From: Polyrhizophydium stewartii
Taxonomy: Eukaryota > Chytridiomycota > Chytridiomycetes > Rhizophydiales
Assembly: GCA_027604665.1 (NCBI GenBank)
Contig: JADGIZ010000429.1
Coordinates: 1 to 13,830 of the forward strand
Length of the DNA stretch: 13,830 bases
Direction of reading: 5' to 3'
Below are positions 3,989 through 13,752 of this stretch, piece after piece. Under the pieces are notes generated by a model. It was not told where the DNA came from. It did not search any database and worked only from the letters and a program-made list of their open reading frames with translations. The translations under genes and the position numbers were made by a program. The stretch's first letter is position 1. The number at the start of each line of letters is the position of its first letter.

Positions 3989-5191
3989 TCAGAGACCCGC
4001 GGGCGGCATCGGCGTGCGCGGCATCGGCATCGCCGTGCGCGGCATGCCCGTCGGTGTGCGTGCGTGTCGCGATCCGATGGCTGCCGTGCCGTCATCGACG
4101 CCGCCTGCTCCCATCGAGCTCTCCGCCTGCGGCTGCAGGCTTTCAATCACGATCGTCGGCAGCCGTTCGATGCTACGGCCCGCTGTCGCTGGTGCATTCC
4201 CTACGGCCCGATCCAGCACCACCGAAGGCCCGCTTGACCCGTCACTCGTGCCTTCCGTGGCCGCGGCCCCAAACCTCAGAATCTCGATCTTGCGCCCGTC
4301 GCTCGTCAAGGTTTCCTCGCTTGTGTGTGCATGCGCATGGTCCAGCGCTATGCCGTTCTCGTCCAAATCGAGATCAACGTCTTCGCCGCCGTCGAGATGG
4401 AAGTCGGCGAGCGACAGCGCCGAAAGCATCAGCGCTTCGGCGTGCCCACCCTGGACGGGCTCCCGTTCCTGCGTCTGCACCCATCCGACGGGCGGAGACC
4501 CTGGCGGCGAAAGCAAAAAGTTGCGCTCGGTCTCAGGAACCTGCAGCAGGTTCAGACGCATGCCGGCATTGGGGTCCAGATGGTTGAGGTCCGTGTGCTG
4601 CAGCCGGGGTAGTGTCAGATGGCCGCCCTCGTGCTCGGATGTGCGAGCACGACGTCGAGGCCTGCACACAAACGAACCTGCCCGAAATACACCCGCATCT
4701 CGCGGCCCTGGAAGTCAGACTTGTGCAGATCCTCGCGGGCCCTCTGTGCCACGAAGGTGTCCGAGAACACAGCTGAGACCGCCGTCGCTGCCGTCAGCCC
4801 AGCTCATCGCGCGTCCGGGCACCCAAGGGGCTCGTGCCGCACGGCGCCAAGGGGTGCTTGAGGCAGCGGCCAGGCGCAGCGCGCACGCACCAAGCATGCG
4901 ACCAAACGACTTGAGGATGACGAGTTTGGCCAGGCTGCCGTATGTCTGTTGGAGCATTTCTCGCACCGGCTGCCCCTGGGCCTCGAACGCCTCGGGCAGC
5001 AGATTCGTGATGACCAGCGTGTTGGTGGCGATGGGCTGCGGATCGCTGCCCTCGAGCACGGTCGCAATCGCCGCGGAGACGGCCTCGGCCTGCGCAGGCT
5101 CCTGGATGGACGCGGCGGCTGCCTGCCCATGCGCGGGCCGGTGCGCATGTGCGTGTCTTGGCGCTTGTGGGGGGTCCTTGGCACGAACCAT
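3989..5191 (-). CDS. RCN1: Calcipressin (RCAN/Rcn1 family calcineurin regulator)
   Basis: Cytosolic regulator that binds the Ca2+/calmodulin phosphatase calcineurin. Exons are 5191-4891, 4772-4678 and 4597-3989, giving 1005 nt and 334 aa; introns are 118 and 80 nt. An RRM-like fold begins at TNTLVITNLLPEAF and continues through LKSFGRML, joined across intron 1 to AVFSD, and through the β-strand MRVYFGQ ending exon 2. Exon 3 gives the family core: an LxVP site (LQVP, 150-153), then FLLSPPGSPPVGW at 159-171, the conserved serine-proline phosphorylation motif. A PxIxIT-type calcineurin docking site, PTIVIE, is at 279-284. The start has G at -3 and +4; upstream the frame hits TGA with no other ATG, though a spliced leader cannot be excluded. 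The tail (about 310-334) is low-complexity MPRT/MPMP. Residues about 192-225 are acidic and His-rich. Confidence 0.9.
4004..4066 (-). repeat. Imperfect GGCATCGGC / GGCATGCC repeat encoding the calcipressin tail
   Basis: Plus-strand units around GGCATCGGCGTGCGCGGCAT recur two to three times. Read on the minus strand they encode TPTGMPRTAMPMPRTPMP at the very end of calcipressin. This looks like local expansion of a low-complexity tail. Confidence 0.55.
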
Positions 5192-5444: not shown

Positions 5445-8400
5445 ATGCGCAGGTCGGGCAGGCGAGGCAACGGCGCGGACCAGCCCATGGTCAGGGTCAA
5501 GGAGGAGGACGTCGACGACGGCGGCCTTGGCGAAAACGCACCCATTGGCTTCGAGCCCGAGGAGACGCCGCCCGCGCCAAACCTGACTGCCCGACATGCC
5601 GGTGCTCAAGCACTTGCAGATCTCGCCGACGCCAGCGTCGCTGCCTTGGGCGAGAGCCACGCCGCGAACGGCGCCGCCGCTGCCTGGGGTGGCTCTGCTG
5701 CTGCTGCGGGCCGCTCGTCGGTGGAAGACCCGCGCTTTGCGCTCTCTTCTGGGTCAGGCGCTGGCGGCCGCGCAGGAGCTGGCCCGTCCGGAATGGACGT
5801 GGACGCTGGTGCGTTCGAGGGCGACGTCGCTGGGCCGGCCGAGCCAGGATCCCGCATGAGCGGCGTGCGCCATGATATGGACTACCGTGGCTACGGCGCA
5901 GAGCGCCACGGAGAAGATGGATACGCCGACGGCGACGGCTATGGCGACCAGGACGGCGACGGCGATGACATGGGCGGCGACGACGATGACGACGACCCCA
6001 TCGTTCAGGAGTTCGATGTGTACTTGTCCAACGAAATGTCCGACTCGCTCTACCTGCTGCAGTTTCCGACTCGCCCGCACACCTTCACGTCTGAATCGAT
6101 CCCAAAGGAGGGCCGCATCAAGTACAAGCACAAGAAGCTGCAGCTTGACGTTGAGCTCGACATCACTGGCGGGCACTATGATCATCAGGCCGGCGAGCGC
6201 TTTGGCCAAGGCCTGCACAACAAACCGCTACTCACGGCGTTTGACCTGCACAGCCGCGGCTTTGAAGCGGAGCGCACGCTTTTGAAACACATCAAGCTCG
6301 AGTCCAAGATAGTTCCGCTCAATGCTCAGTACATGATTGGCGTGTTGCGGCATCGTGCGTTGATGATCCGTTGCTGCTCTCCTCGCCCGCACTCACGGCT
6401 GTGCAGCTGACCACCGTATCTTGCTTGAATCAGGCGCGCTGCATCTCCGCCCGATCTCGACGATCCTGCAGCTGCGGCAGTCGCTTGACTACATCGACAA
6501 GATCAACGAGAAAGAAAAGAACGCCAGCCAGCGCATCATGCACGAGGAGCGCAAAGAAGAAGGCATCGAAGATGAGGCCAAGATGATTCAGGTACTTGCA
6601 CGCCGTGATGCGAGCCTTTCCTCCCAGTCGCGCCGTGCTCTCTGACTTTACCGAGGTGCACAGGTCATGGTTCGCAGCTCTGACGACAAGGAGGCGTCAA
6701 AGCGTGCGTCGGTGTCCGAGATGCAGCGCCAGTCCGACTCCGAGCAGTGGACGCCGCTCTCGATCAAGGGACCAGAGGTATGATCTGTCGTCAGCGCCTA
6801 TGCAACTCTGCGGGCTCTAACCGCCGCCCGCTATCCGCTGCCCATTTGGCTTTGCAGCACGAGGATTCGGAGCATTTTCGCAGACTGATTGGCCACACAG
6901 ACGTTGCTAAAATCGACTTTGATGACACGAGCAAAAGCTACATCGACACCATCAGCCCTCTTGTCATTCAGTAAGCCCTCGCACATAGTGTTTTCGACAG
7001 CGTGGCCGCATGCGTCATGCCTCTGATCCGCAGGCACAATGTAAATATAGGCAGCAGCAGGCGGCCACCAACCCAGCCGCCTCCAAGGCAGACGCCGCCA
7101 AGGCTGAAGTGCGCCAAGGCATGTCGGTTGCCGAGATGGCCCATCTGCCCCTCGCGGACAAGTGCAAGGCGCTTCTTTTAAATGGTACTCCTGCCGCCAA
7201 AGGCCATGGGAGCATCTGATCTGGCCTGCTCACCAATGTGCCTCTGCGTCCAGCTCATGTTGTCCAACACAGCACGATTGTGAACTTAATTGGCGACCCC
7301 GGCATAGGCAATAGGGAGCTGATCAAAGCACTGACCGACGTGGCATACCTGATCCGCGGGGTCTGGGTTATCAAAAGCGAGCTGCTGTACACTGGACGAG
7401 CCTATGATGCTCGCCGCTTCCTTCTCGGCCTGCTGAATAGCAAGGAGTACGTCTCGCGCAAGGAATTCGTCGACATCACCCACCTCCTCCCCAACATGGC
7501 CGCCAACATGTTGAACGAAATCGCCGATTTGGATGAGGGCCTCGGCTGGAGACTCAAAGTGCCGCCTGATTCTGCTTTTGTCGAGAAGTGCGCAAGCGGC
7601 GTCGCTCTGTTGGGCTGCTCGCATTCGCTCGCTGACGCGGATTCCGATGGCAGCCACGACAGGATTGTCGAGTCGCAAAGGAAGCTTGTCGAGGACGAGA
7701 TGCACAAGTAAGCGTGGCTATCTTGGCAATTTGCCATCCTTACTGTTGCATGACCACTGACTCGTGCATGCCTCCTTATTCAGGGCCATGGAGGCGATGC
7801 GAGTCCCCGACCGCACGCGCCGCAGGCAGTCTCTTGTGTCTGGCCGCGAGCCTGCGGCCACGGCCGTTTCCCCCGCTGCCGCTTCCCCCGCTGCTGCCGC
7901 CGCCGCAGGCAACGCTGGCAGTGCCTCTGGCGGTAGCTCCACGACTGGCTCTCAAAATGCAGCGCAGGTGCTCGACGCCGCTAAGCTCTCTGGTGGTGGC
8001 GCTTCGGCGCAGCTCGATGCGCTCATCAAGGCCCTCTTCCACGCACACCCGCTATGCACAATGGACTTTGTGACTCGCTCGTTCCTTCTCAGCAAGTGTG
8101 AGATGCAGCGCTTGTCAGCGTACACCTGGCGCACACGCGCATGCTGACTGCGTTGTCGTCGCTGCAGACAAATCGGTTGGCTTCACGAGGGATCAGATCT
8201 CGCTGGCAGTCGAGAGTATGTGTCTGCAGGTTTCGGGCGGATATGCGCTCAAGACAGGCGCCAGCAAGTTGGCGGAGAAGTTCAGGCCGGCCATTTTCAA
8301 GCTGTTCGCCGAAAAGGGCCGCGCCAGGCGCAGCGAAATCCAGGCCAAGTGCGTCGAGGAGGGTCTTGGCGAGATCCCTCATTCGGCTTACATCAAGATC

Positions 8401-8460
8401 ATGAGCGAGATTGCCACAAGCGACGGCACCTTCTGGCAGCTCAAGCCGATGGCGCAATGA
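5445..8460 (+). CDS. RPC5: RNA polymerase III subunit RPC5 (POLR3E / Rpc37 family)
   Basis: Subunit of the Pol III RPC4-RPC5 (TFIIF-like) heterodimer, acting in initiation and termination on tRNA and 5S genes in the nucleus. Exons are 5445-6354, 6434-6591, 6664-6777, 6858-6970, 7051-7184, 7254-7707, 7784-8097 and 8168-8460, giving 2490 nt and 829 aa. After a low-complexity acidic N-terminus (about 1-184), the family core starts at PIVQEFDVYL with LYLLQFPTRP. It continues with ALHLRPISTILQLRQSLDYID, where the splice builds HRALHL, then VMVRSSDDKE. Exon 6 has VWVIKSELLY and the RKEFVDITHLL winged-helix region typical of POLR3E. The C-terminal exon forms another helical domain ending in GTFWQLKP. 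Introns are 69-80 nt. It is longer than human POLR3E (about 708 aa), mainly from the N-terminus and an Ala-rich linker. An in-frame ATG at 5487 is an alternative start. Confidence 0.9.
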
Positions 8461-8566: not shown

Positions 8567-11500
8567 TCAAGAGGGCTCGAAGAACGACTTGAAGAGAGGG
8601 TCCTGCCGCAAGGCCTTGCTTCCTGTGACGAACGCGTGGCAGTGCATCAGTAAATTGGGAAATCGCGTCTCAAAGTAGGACCAGAACTCGTTGGGCATCG
8701 GGCCCACAATCTTCCTGACGTTGGCCGGCAGGTCCTGATAGTGGTGTTTCTGTACTCGCAGTCAGCGGAGGCTGTGTGAAATCAAGCCACGCTGGCCGTG
8801 AATTAGAGAAGACAAAAAACGCACCTTGTTCCTGATTGCTCGTAGCAGATCCTGGACGAGGGCGCCGTTGTAAGGACGGTGTTGCCCAAGATTGTCAAGC
8901 ACGATTTTGTCAAGTTTGGCCGTCCAGTCGCCTCCGGTCACTTTGGCCGCGCCGCGCTCGAGGAACTTGAGCAGCGCCGACGGCGGATCGCGCTTTTCGA
9001 CTTCAAGGCGGTCAGAGATGTCCTGCAAGAAGCGGAGCCGGTCGGCCGGCTTCCAGAAGAATGGATGCATGATGACTTGGGCGGCATCCGGGCTGTGCCT
9101 GCGTGTCAGCGCCAAGTGCCAGACGCACGCCAGCCAAGCAAACAATTCGCAGCGCACCGCTTGCTCGGATCCTTTGAGATCATCCGCTTGATCAGATCCT
9201 TGGCCAGCACGCTCTCCTCCTTGAGCACGTCGAGCGCATCGAGCCTGAAGTTGCCGCGCAGCACGTTTATCTCTCGGAGGAACTTGTCGCCGAACGGGTG
9301 CTTGCCACCAGTGAGCACATAAAAGAAGACGCATCCAATCGAGAAGATGTCGACTGCGCGCGTGATGCGAATCGGCGAAGCGTCTGTGCTGGCGCTCATG
9401 ACATCGGTGTTGGCGACCGTACTTGCATCGCCCGAGTGGCCATCGTGGTCTTCGTCGCTGAGAAGCTCTCCGGGCGCCTCGTTGGCCAGCGCCAGCAGGC
9501 ACTCTGGCGCGCGCCAGCCAGCCGTGCCGCCGCCGAACCCGACCGTGTTGTGGAACGACGACTGGTCGTCCGCAAGCCGCTTCCCGAGTCCAAAGTCCGA
9601 GATCATGACGCGCGGCTTGCGGTTCTTCTTGTTCTTTGGGCCGCCAATCAGGATATTCTGCGGCTTGAGGTCGCGGTGCACGATCTTCATCGAGTGCAGG
9701 TGCTGCAGACCGGCCATGATCTGCACCAATACGTCCTTGTGTTCGAGCTGCTCGCGCAAGGCCGCCAGTACAGGTGTTGGCGGCTTCTCGACGAGGTCAA
9801 AGAGCGATGCCGGACAGAGCTCGAGCGCGATGTAAAGGAAGCCCTCGGCCTGCTCTTGGATGTAGTACCGGATAACATTGGGATGGCGATCCGACTCTTG
9901 CAGGATCTTGACCTCGTGGTCTGCCATCTCGAAAAAGTCGATAAGCAGCCGCTTGATGGCAACCTCGCGACCCTCAAAGAAGCCCTTGTACACGATCGTG
10001 CCGTGGCTGCCGTATCCTACAACGGCAGGCGTGTCAGCTTTCAGTGGCGCAGGCCGAGACAGGCCATGGTGGAGAGCATAGCGACCGTGCTCACCAAGCA
10101 CCTGGGTCGTCAGTGTCAGCTTCTGCAGGCCGCTCGGATTCGTCGTCGCGAGAGCAGAAGCAGGCGTTCCCGGCCGAGAGCCGGCATCTCCGTTTGAGAC
10201 ACTGCGGTCTTTGCCGGGAACAACAATATCGCTGTTGTCCTCGTCGTCGCCATCGTCACTGTCGTCGTCGAGCTCTTGTGCGATACTTGACGATGCCCGC
10301 TCGACGGTGGGCTGGTGGGAATGCACCTCTTCGCGAGAGGCCAGAGCGGGTAGATTCGAGCTGCCATCGACGGATCCGGCCTCGTGCGCGCTCGACGGCG
10401 CGACATGGTCACTGCCCGACGACGGCGGTCGTGACGACGGAGCGCCTTTCTTGGCAATCTCGGCGTCGAGCATCTCGCGCAGCTTGATACTCTCGAGATA
10501 CCTCTCAATCTCGTCCAAACTGGTGAACTCGTCCGCAATTGAGCCTATGTTGAGCTTTTCCGTGATGTTATCGTTAAGGATGATGGCGCGATACTTTTCG
10601 CCACTGTCTGCGACGAACGTCTGCGTGAAACCGAGTCGGTGCTCAGGCTCGCCGCAGTCGGACGAGTCTGTCAAGTCAAAGCGCAGCTGGCTGCGCTTGC
10701 CCTTCATGCCGTAAGTGAAGCGACAGATTCGCGGTTGCAAGGATCCCTTCTTGGCCCTGTTCTGCTGATAGCGCTCGTGGCGCATCTCGAGCCATTTCTC
10801 GTAGCTGATCGGCGGCTCGGGTGAAGTCAGGATGGCCTTGTACTTGCTGATACTGTCGGGGTCTTGGTCTGGTGCAGCCGGAAGCAGCGAGGACGCAGAA
10901 AAGGTCGCTTCAGACTCGGCTTTGCCCGACGCCGATGAAGCAGCAGCAGCCCCTGCATCGTCAGGAGGCCTGCGGTCCGAGTATGGCGATGCCGGGTCGG
11001 CGCCTGCAGAAGCTGCATCGCCGGAAACTTGCTTTTCAGCGCGGACCTCGGCGAGAGCGGACGCCAAGTCAATCTTCTCCAGATAGTCGTCCATGCTGGT
11101 GCCAACAGGGCGGACCTTGAGGCTAAACATCCGCTTATAGAGGGCGGCCCGAGTGTCCGCATCAATGATGCGCATCGAATAGCGAAACCCATCTGCGCCG
11201 ACTGCATGCTGAGTGAAGCCAACCTCGTGCTCGCTGTTCGAGCACTCGGACTCGTCTGTTGACTCGAACTTGATCGACATGGCTTTGCCGTCCGAAGCAA
11301 ACGTAAAGCGGCTTTTCTTGGGCGAGGTGCGCGGTTGCCGGGCAACGCCCGCGTTGGCCTTCTGAGCCTTGTGCTGCTCCTTCCTTTTCAGCCAGTCTTC
11401 GTAACTCATTGTCGAGGAGCCGGTGCCGTCGGCCTGGATCGGCACCGTCGTCTTGAGCGAAGGAGACGTGCCTGGCGCTAATGGAGACGACGCGGCGTCG

Positions 11501-13752
11501 GCTGGAGCAGCGTCGGTCAGAGTCGTATCGATCGGAGCGGCATCGGTTGTGCGATGAGCCGATGCGGTCGCGGCCAGAGCGGCGCTGGTCGCGGCTTGAT
11601 GCACGGCGTCCGATATTGCAGCTTCGGCAGCCTGCTGCGCGGCAGCCATGGCTGCCTCCTTGGCTCTCGAGAGGATTGAATCTGCGGCGTCGGAAGCCTG
11701 TCGAGCCACAGCGACCGACATATCTCTGGATCTGGATGAAATCGAGGCTGCGGCATCGGTCGCCTGCTTTGCGACAGCCATAGCCATGCTTGTGGCCATG
11801 GATGAGACGGACGCTGCTGCTTCTGAGATTTGTCTTGCGGCAGAGCCAGCCGATAGTCTTTTTCTTGACGAGACCGACGTGTGGTTTTCTCCGGCATGCG
11901 CAAGAGCTGCCTCTACTGCGGCACGTGAAGCAGCCTGTGCGGCAGCGAGCGCGGCGGGCTCTGCGGCCGCCATTCCAGCTTGGGCGGCGGCTTCATGTGC
12001 AATGGCCCTCGCGACCGAATCGGCCATATCTGCTCCACGCACCGACAACTGCTCGGACGACAGATGCGTTGAAGGGCCGCCATGATGAGGGGCAGTGGAG
12101 CCGGCGCGCGGCGGCCCATGAGTCGCACGGGGCGACGAGAGTGAAGAACTTGACAGAACCGGCGAGGTGACGTCTGAAAACGATGATGTCAATGCCCCGT
12201 ACATCATCGTATCGCAAGCTAGCAAATTGCATCTTGCGTTACCTGTCGCAGTGTATGCAGGCGGAGGAGGCGGCAGCGGCACGTCCATAAACGCGTGCTG
12301 CATCATTGGCGGTGCTGGCGGCGGTGGTGGCGGTGGGGGCAGGCTGAAGGCCGGAAAGCGGGACGGGCTGCCAATCGGCAGCGGTGGCGGAGGCGGAGGC
12401 GGAGGCGGCATCGGTATCGGGAGATGCTCGTACTTTGGAAGGAGCGGCGGCAGCGGCGGTGGTGGTGGGCCGAGTGCATGCAGCTCTTTGGCGGATCTGG
12501 ATGGCGCAGCCGAGGGCGGATCTTCTGGCGGCGCGGATCCAGGGATGCCGGGGAGAGGGCGATCGTGCATGGCCGGAACGTGAACGTTGACTCCAATGTC
12601 GCGGCCGTCTTGGAACACAAAGGCCCTGCTATCGCTGCGCGGCGGTGTGGGGGGCTCGGCGCCTTCATGACTGCCAGCGGCGCTCGTGTGCTGACTGCCC
12701 GCACTTGTCGACGATCGAAGGCTGAGCTGCGGCCCTGATCCGCCGAGCCGCATAACAAACATGGCCGGGCTTTGAGAAGACGGAATCGAAAAGGACTCTA
12801 TGAACGAGCCACTTGAAGAATGCACCCTCGTGGGCGGCCTCCCGTTGCTCGCCGGATTGGCGTCCAGCGGCGAGCTGACAATGGCGTGTGGGGTTTGAAA
12901 AGCCTGCTGCTGCTGCTGCTGCTGATGGCGATCATACTCGGACCAGATGCGCTCGGTGGTGCTGCGTGCGCGCACCGCAATCAGGCGCTGTCGCTCGTCA
13001 AGGAGGGCATCGCGCTCGGCAGCGACCGAAGCAATCTGGGCATTGATTTTGGCGAGGTCGGCGGCGGTATTGGCGGCCTCTGCGTCGAGCTGCGCATTGA
13101 CGGGGTATCCCGAACGGGCGATGGAGGCGTCGATGCGCTGAATCACGGCCTTGAGCTGGTTGCGGGTGGCATTGAGCGCAGTGAGCTGCGAGGCGGCCGC
13201 CTGGATTTGGGACTCGAGCGACACAGACTGATGGTCGGGGTGGCCAAGTGGGGGATGCGGCGCGGCAGGGGGCGCTGGACCCGGCGGATAGAGCTGCTGC
13301 GGCGCCTGGGCACCGGCGAAAGGGGGCGGTGCGTCGACAGCGGTTGCGGGCACCGGCGGTGCCAGGGGTCCGGCGTGCAGCCGTGCACGTCGCAGGCGGT
13401 CGGATGCCTCGTGCAGCGCGCGCTGGGCGGCGGCCCGCTCGTCCTGCACGGCGTCGAGCGCATCGATGGCGGCCATGACGCCCGGGCCGGGCTCGGGCCC
13501 GGCGGTCTCGCGCGCCAGCCGCTCCTCGGCCTGGTGCAGCCGTGCGTCTGCGGCAGCCAAGCGCTGCGTGGCGGCGTCCAAGTCCTGCTGGGCGAGCTCG
13601 CACTCGCGGCTTGCGATGCTGCCGACGGCAGGGATGCCTGGGAGGAGCGGCGGGGCCGAGGGCGCCGTTAAGACCGTCTGGGGCAGGTACGGCGGCGTGC
13701 CCCGCTGCTGCGGGCCGCTGCCGCTGCTGCTGCTGCCGCTTCCGCCGCCCAT
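8567..13752 (-). CDS. IRE1-type kinase-KEN endoribonuclease with a non-luminal N-terminus
   Basis: Predicted kinase/RNase of the IRE1-RNase L class. Exons are 13752-12243, 12173-10095, 10016-9158, 9092-8825 and 8749-8567, giving 4899 nt and 1632 aa. Domains by approximate residue: coiled coils 48-125 and 175-275; polyQ 277-283; polyproline 425-503; 22-residue helical repeats 617-704; unrecognised tandem domain 760-885 and 960-1079; acidic patch 1136-1153; kinase 1188-1496; KEN 1497-1628. Kinase motifs are intact: glycine loop VLGYGSHGTIVYKG, K1218 (VAIK), HRD ending D1312, DFG from D1337, GWRAPE. The KEN residues matching yeast Ire1 Y1043, R1056, N1057 and H1061 are Y1557, R1570, N1571 and H1575. 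No signal peptide, luminal domain or transmembrane helix is visible. The start has A at -3 and G at +4, and TGA lies in frame four codons upstream with no AG between. The enzymatic part is IRE1-like with high confidence; the role is unknown, so no symbol is given. Confidence 0.9.
10017..10094 (-). other. In-frame stopless intron inside the kinase glycine-rich loop
   Basis: Donor GTGAGC follows CTT-G and acceptor GTTGTAG precedes GA-TAC. Removing these 78 nt joins QVLG to YGSHG, restoring the IRE1 glycine-rich loop VLGYGSHGT. A branch-like GCTGACA lies about 25 nt before the acceptor. The intron is a multiple of three without a stop, so read-through would insert 26 foreign residues into the ATP-binding loop. 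Confidence 0.85.
11572..11835 (-). repeat. Tandem 66-bp repeat encoding 22-residue helices
   Basis: Three clear 22-residue units begin RQISEAAAS (617), KQATDAAAS (639) and RQASDAADS (661). A fourth degenerate unit begins QQAAEAAIS (683). The shared pattern is [KRQ]Q-x-[STA]-[DE]-AA-x-S-[IV]-x-S, ending in an Ala/Met-rich AxA. The DNA units have diverged at wobble positions, so the repeat is not recent. Confidence 0.85.
12174..12242 (-). other. In-frame stopless intron in the proline-rich region
   Basis: Donor GTAACG and a pyrimidine-rich acceptor TTTTCAG flank 69 nt. The translation of this segment contains two cysteines and two adjacent methionines, unlike its Ser/Pro-rich flanks, and its base composition is more AT-rich. 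Removal joins YTAT to DVTSP in frame. Confidence 0.7.
12244..12475 (-). repeat. Polyproline-encoding low-complexity tract
   Basis: Runs of GGCGGT/GGAGGC on the plus strand encode, on the minus strand, blocks of five to nine consecutive prolines separated by short hydrophobic spacers (LPPLLP, IPMP, FSLP, DVPLP). The density is like formin FH1 or WASP-type profilin/SH3 ligands. Confidence 0.85.
12904..12924 (-). repeat. CAG (CTG on plus) trinucleotide repeat, seven copies
   Basis: Seven perfect CTG units on the plus strand encode Q277-Q283 of the IRE1-like protein, just after the second coiled coil (HQQQQQQQAF). It is an uninterrupted triplet run and therefore likely length-variable. Confidence 0.9.

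Follow-up and report, generated by a model that had tools for sequence, protein, structure and literature searches.

The stretch of DNA analysed here (the window, 13,830 bases) is the entire contig C428 of a Polyrhizophydium stewartii genome assembly of 12.86 Mb in 690 contigs. According to the available part of PMC12204190, this species is a non-pathogenic, saprophytic relative of Batrachochytrium dendrobatidis. The main feature of the window is a minus-strand gene coding for a protein of ~1630-1655 residues, depending on the gene model, with the kinase and KEN RNase domains of IRE1 in its C-terminal part (Table 1). It lies tail to tail, with 106 bases between, with a plus-strand gene for the RNA polymerase III subunit RPC5 (~5445-8460), in which PF04801 is matched in two pieces, the C-terminal match being under its cut-off. 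A coding piece for a calcipressin (RCAN) is found at 3992-4714 on the minus strand.

Table 1. Features of the putative IRE1 paralogue gene and its 5' flank (window positions)
Feature	Position	Strand	Remarks
Gene of the putative sensorless IRE1 paralogue, ATG 13752 to stop	8567..13752	-	~1632 aa; NCBI model 1655 aa
End of dispersed repeat, at contig end	13754..13830	-	Holds in-frame TGA 13764-13762
N-terminal helical, coiled-coil-like module	13384..13599	-	Common to B. dendrobatidis P0002
Polyproline tracts	12252..12471	-	From the sequence
Possible in-frame intron, 69 nt, GT-AG	12174..12242	-	Retained as coding in P0001
Alanine-rich array, four 22-residue (2 x 11) units, amphipathic-helix-like	11590..11853	-	Region picked after viewing the sequence
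Tandem domain, unit 1	11044..11412	-	35% identity between units
Tandem domain, unit 2	10447..10809	-	35% identity between units
Kinase domain, VAIK/HRD/DFG/APE intact	9041..10116	-	Contains introns 10094-10017 and 9157-9093
In-frame intron, 78 nt, directly before glycine loop	10017..10094	-	Absent from P0001 and from the reading of the canonical paralogue
Exact-identity mosaic with C680	9084..9654	-	9654-9488 (167 nt), 9354-9304 (51 nt), 9267-9084 (184 nt)
Intron, 65 nt	9093..9157	-	Identical in canonical paralogue
KEN RNase domain, Y/R/N/H intact	8579..9040	-	Contains intron 8824-8750

A model with four introns, the three listed in Table 1 and 8824-8750, codes for 1632 residues. It replaced a two-intron model of 1683 residues after comparison with the canonical IRE1 paralogue of the same genome and with the NCBI protein P0001 (P. 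stewartii, 1655 residues). The assignment of the 78-nt segment as an in-frame intron comes from the same two comparisons, and the acceptor of the third intron, placed at 9099 in an earlier version, was shifted by 6 nt to 9093 by comparison with P0001. Apart from gene-model differences, only two substitutions separate P0001 from the window protein. P0001 belongs to a second P. stewartii record, where the annotation places it on a contig of 503 kb. The gene of the window is real.

The 77 bases at the contig end recur on 16 other contigs, in matches of 57-77 nt with 92-100% identity. Fourteen of these 16 were checked; the match is at most 20 bases from the contig end in eleven of them and internal in one (C525). 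The segment forms one end of a dispersed element, at which the assembly breaks. The element is perhaps SINE- or LINE-like, with AATAAA and a TCTAA-type tail on the far side in C525, and an Rfam search of the C525 copy gave no match. The original prediction took the in-frame TGA before the ATG to exclude an upstream coding exon. This argument fails: since the TGA lies within the dispersed repeat, where the contig also ends, it is uninformative on the original gene. Part of the coding sequence may be missing at the 5' end, as ~215 residues precede the shared helical module in the B. dendrobatidis protein P0002 (1511 residues) versus ~50 in the window protein. Nevertheless, the ~165 extra residues of P0002 hold neither a luminal domain nor a strong hydrophobic segment, and P0001, itself a gene prediction, has the same ATG as its start. 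A missing luminal domain upstream is unlikely.

Catalytic and N-terminal halves of the protein

Alignment to yeast Ire1 (3fbv) revealed complete kinase and KEN motifs, with the RNase domain immediately C-terminal to the kinase. The residues listed in the original prediction, i.e. K1218, HRD D1312 and DFG D1337 for the kinase and Y1557, R1570, N1571 and H1575 for the RNase, are all present (numbering of the four-intron model), and the SSF..T stretch of the activation loop is retained. The intact kinase motifs argue against a pseudokinase like that of RNase L. All 16 solved sequences that match at E up to 1e-30 carry the name IRE1, and NCBIfam gave general kinase matches only, below their cut-offs. 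By pattern matching, the catalytic motifs are present in P0001, P0002 and the B. salamandrivorans protein P0121. In the Homolaphlyctis protein P0122 the kinase motifs were matched and the KEN pattern was not, yet RNKKHHY is visible in the sequence. On sequence grounds, the catalytic half is that of an ordinary IRE1.

The region before the kinase was analysed with a luminal-domain profile and by hydropathy. The profile was trained on 79 proteins (P0042-P0120) and tested on 41 other IRE1-like proteins, both sets being drawn from the best 120 of 2450 matches. It matched 38 of the 41, the misses being P0001, which is the same protein as that of the window, P0002 and the fish protein P0013. The latter, from Sparus aurata, contains several kinase-KEN units in tandem without a luminal match. 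Neither a signal peptide nor a luminal sensor was found in the window protein, for which 78 nt of contig are available ahead of the ATG. In 19-residue Kyte-Doolittle windows N-terminal to the kinase, this protein and P0001 peak at 1.12, whereas the canonical paralogue reaches 1.97 at its membrane span; the P0002 N-terminus peaks at 1.02. Thus, a membrane span before the kinase was not detected by hydropathy, a test that is weak on its own. Indeed, it is crude: P0105 and P0039, which do bear a luminal domain, score only 1.02 and 1.03, and 21 of the 120 listed proteins have no window of at least 1.6 after residue 60, 18 of which carry a luminal domain by the profile. The luminal profile is the stronger test. 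With no profile match and a hydropathy maximum of 1.12, the predicted absence of a luminal domain and of a membrane span before the kinase is borne out.

A counterpart of the long N-terminus was sought in related fungi, and its helical module was found in P0002. The similarity (E 7.1e-8 and 30% identity over 13734-13387 in a search against the genome; E 8e-10 and 29% identity over residues 52-169 of P0001 in a pairwise comparison) concerns low-complexity, helical sequence, a kind in which proteins more often resemble each other by chance. The upstream part of the B. dendrobatidis N-terminus (residues 1-172) has no match in the P. stewartii genome assembly. Neither the tandem domain, nor the 22-residue array, nor the polyproline tracts could be aligned with the N-terminus of P0002, which places these three features outside the conserved core. 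Of the two parts named in the original prediction for scaffolding, the coiled-coil-like one is also present in B. dendrobatidis and the polyproline one does not align there. These comparisons suggest that one retained, oligomerisation-like module is set amid fast-changing N-terminal parts.

Over the region picked for the 22-residue array after viewing the sequence, lag-22 self-identity is 0.31 versus a shuffle mean of 0.17, a value reached by 0 of 2000 shuffles, and the moment at 98 degrees is 0.116 versus 0.046 (0.5% of shuffles). No tandem repeats were found at the DNA level across the array. The tandem domain is present in a single copy in the genome assembly, and a search with this domain and its linker returned the P. 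stewartii protein as sole match at E up to 1, with 7999 candidates of ~900-2860 residues scored. AlphaFold2 models of the units are poor (mean pLDDT of 45.4 with one sequence and 41.7 with the two units aligned); they suggest a fold composed of a helix, four or five strands and then a helix. With a limit of E 1, Pfam has four matches in the first-exon protein. All are to kinase families except one, which is insignificant, and none is to ankyrin repeats.

A canonical IRE1 in the same genome and the age of the duplication

A search of the P. stewartii genome assembly for the KEN family revealed two loci, C428 and C680. The latter codes for a signal-peptide-like start (at 5645), a luminal domain and a membrane span. 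A luminal-domain search of the assembly, whose completeness is not given, found C680 and one weak match on C9 (E 0.18). The window gene had been proposed to be a second IRE1 paralogue, and the canonical copy on C680 and the phylogeny described below both agree with this proposal. Public records call both P. stewartii genes ‘bifunctional endoribonuclease/protein kinase ire1’, which carries a risk of confusion for work on chytrid stress responses. In the public models P0003 and P0007 of canonical IRE1, the signal peptide is apparently replaced by a cytochrome b5-like gene fused to the luminal domain, and P0007 also stops within the membrane span. For both P0001 and P0003, the longest contig is given as 503,445 bases.

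The two loci share patches of exact identity (Table 1), which map to 8391-9000 of C680 and are surrounded by diverged sequence. One of these patches spans a whole intron. This pattern looks like recent gene conversion between the two P. stewartii paralogues, collapse of the two copies in the assembly being the alternative.

For a first tree, 40 of the 120 listed proteins were chosen, and P0007 was omitted as it breaks inside the span, which left 39 rows. P0001 and P0002 pair in this tree (100/99), within a five-member clade (100/100) that also contains the canonical IRE1s of P. stewartii, B. dendrobatidis and B. salamandrivorans. A search for shorter proteins (best 120 of 756 matches) gave twelve additional chytrid models: P0121 and P0124 of B. 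salamandrivorans, P0122 and P0177 of Homolaphlyctis, six of Entophlyctis helioformis, P0142 of Gorgonomyces and P0159 of Globomyces. Nine of the twelve were included in a second tree, from which P0124, P0179 and P0209 were omitted as incomplete and nine non-chytrid rows were dropped. It showed a paralogue clade of seven rows (99/99), with the window gene and sequences of B. dendrobatidis, B. salamandrivorans, Homolaphlyctis and E. helioformis, and a sister canonical clade of five with support of 87/72 only. The two clades together make up a group of twelve (100/97) that excludes Globomyces and Gorgonomyces. The kinase-KEN phylogeny thus places the window gene inside fungal IRE1.

Grouping the window gene with the canonical gene, as expected of a duplication restricted to P. 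stewartii, was rejected (AU p 0.0005). Taken with the trees, this result suggests that IRE1 was duplicated before these genera diverged from one another and after their split from Globomyces and Gorgonomyces. The placement of E. helioformis P0123 is weak: forcing it with the paralogues is 2.16 log units worse (p 0.038). Five other E. helioformis kinase-KEN models (P0127, P0128, P0132, P0179 and P0209) have an altered APE motif (WRPRE), and three of them are in the paralogue clade. E. helioformis models also have an apparent KEN insertion, RNQASGCKHH, at the site of the P. stewartii intron, which may be an annotation slip.

Only P. stewartii and B. dendrobatidis were found to have the long sensorless N-terminus. 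The remaining paralogue models are short: the five measured have 46-323 residues N-terminal to the kinase, and P0122 begins at the kinase; these models may be truncated. The absence of a luminal match in them says little, because 97 of the best 120 of 756 short matches also have none, only 23 having one at E <1e-5. We think that most of the short proteins are unmatched because their models are cut. One hydrophobic window of 1.77 precedes the kinase in P0128 of E. helioformis.

Readings of the gene and known kinase-RNases

We propose, with a probability of roughly 0.77, that the gene is an old, retained, sensorless IRE1 paralogue that has kept the kinase-RNase and lost the ER sensor and the membrane anchor. 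The architecture in P. stewartii and B. dendrobatidis, the catalytic motifs, the relationship to canonical IRE1 and the relative age of the duplication are read directly from the sequences. IRE1 would have been duplicated in an ancestor of Batrachochytrium, Homolaphlyctis, Polyrhizophydium and E. helioformis. One copy would have remained canonical, with signal peptide, luminal sensor and membrane span, and the other would have lost these and come to have a long N-terminus, largely of low complexity, that includes a coiled-coil-like module. The protein is probably cytosolic, or might be peripherally bound to membranes. Self-association of the N-terminal parts might draw the kinase domains together, which would phosphorylate their own activation loops and then dimerise like yeast Ire1. 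Dimerisation would activate the KEN RNase, and cytosolic mRNAs would be cut as in IRE1-dependent decay, in response to an input other than unfolded protein in the ER. More speculatively, and with low confidence, the protein could be a kinase-KEN signalling enzyme uncoupled from folding in the ER lumen, a fungal counterpart of RNase L built from IRE1 in a lineage to which the amphibian chytrids belong. Its fast-changing cytosolic N-terminus, with the retained helical module and with the 11-residue amphipathic array and the tandem domain found only in P. stewartii, would then respond to the state of the cytosol or of a lipid surface by setting off mRNA decay.

The gene might instead code for a canonical membrane IRE1, with the signal peptide, luminal domain and span in exons past the contig end that are spliced over the TGA. 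The contig does end at a repeat 78 nt before the ATG, with the TGA inside that repeat; pyrimidine-rich bases with CTGAT and CTGAC precede the ATG, a splice acceptor just after the ATG is possible, and the B. dendrobatidis relative extends further at its 5' end. We nevertheless consider such upstream exons very unlikely, given that luminal sequence was found in the assembly, of unstated completeness, on C680 (and weakly on C9), that P0001 begins at the identical ATG on a 503-kb contig, that P0002, although longer at this end, is likewise devoid of a luminal domain, and that a linker of more than 1,150 residues would have to separate the span from the kinase. An assembly chimera, a misjoined gene pair or a decaying duplicate is extremely improbable. 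All gene models are automatic, and the patches identical to C680 could mislead a short-read assembler, but the junction between the N-terminus and the kinase is outside these patches, the record on the 503-kb contig has the same sequence, the parts follow one another in the same order in the B. dendrobatidis relative, and the catalytic residues are retained.

Two further readings concern what the protein does. A cytosolic defence RNase of the RNase L type, triggered by a small molecule or foreign RNA, would be built along similar lines, with an N-terminal input part ahead of the kinase and KEN domain; E. helioformis has several copies, and KEN expansions elsewhere are interpreted as conflict-related in the available part of PMC3710099. 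However, the paralogue has no ankyrin repeats, its kinase motifs are intact rather than degenerate and it is the sister of canonical IRE1, which makes this role unlikely. We are doubtful, too, that the amphipathic 22-residue array attaches the protein to the ER or another lipid surface, where it would sense lipid packing and so take over the membrane side of IRE1 function without a span. Both the periodicity and the moment of the array stand out against the shuffles, and sensorless Arabidopsis IRE1B is described as activated by glycerol treatment in the accessible text of PMC6788458, but the array was chosen post hoc and alignment revealed no counterpart in B. dendrobatidis.

A catalytic half retained without the sensor would separate kinase-RNase output from ER-lumen sensing, and the presence of both copies in one non-pathogenic species would represent a natural experiment. 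IRE1 is usually regarded as a single membrane protein per fungus. Titles and abstract openings of the papers listed, from literature that includes a minority of the subscription papers, yielded no report of a sensorless IRE1 copy in fungi.

The nearest solved relatives are yeast and human IRE1 (3fbv, 2rio and 3p23), which resemble the paralogue in the kinase and KEN domains and in the catalytic residues, whereas the paralogue has no detected signal peptide, luminal domain or span and its N-terminus is different and much longer. RNase L is a cytosolic kinase-KEN protein with an N-terminal ankyrin 2-5A sensor and a pseudokinase. It shares with the chytrid protein an N-terminal part followed by kinase and KEN domains, but the chytrid protein has no ankyrin match and its kinase motifs are intact. 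Arabidopsis IRE1C retains a membrane span, unlike the chytrid gene, in which none was detected. Like the chytrid gene, this Brassicaceae protein is a sensorless paralogue found beside canonical copies; a role in pollen development is attributed to it in the accessible text of PMC6788458. Ankyrin repeats and other fusions also occur in KEN-kinase proteins catalogued in the available part of PMC3710099. In Dictyostelium, seven IRE-family kinases all have RNase L domains and only IreA seems to be membrane bound, according to the available part of PMC1420674. As described, the other members of this amoebozoan expansion resemble the chytrid protein in being kinase-RNases that appear to have no membrane anchor. 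Proteins of this kind have published precedents in Dictyostelium and in Arabidopsis IRE1C.
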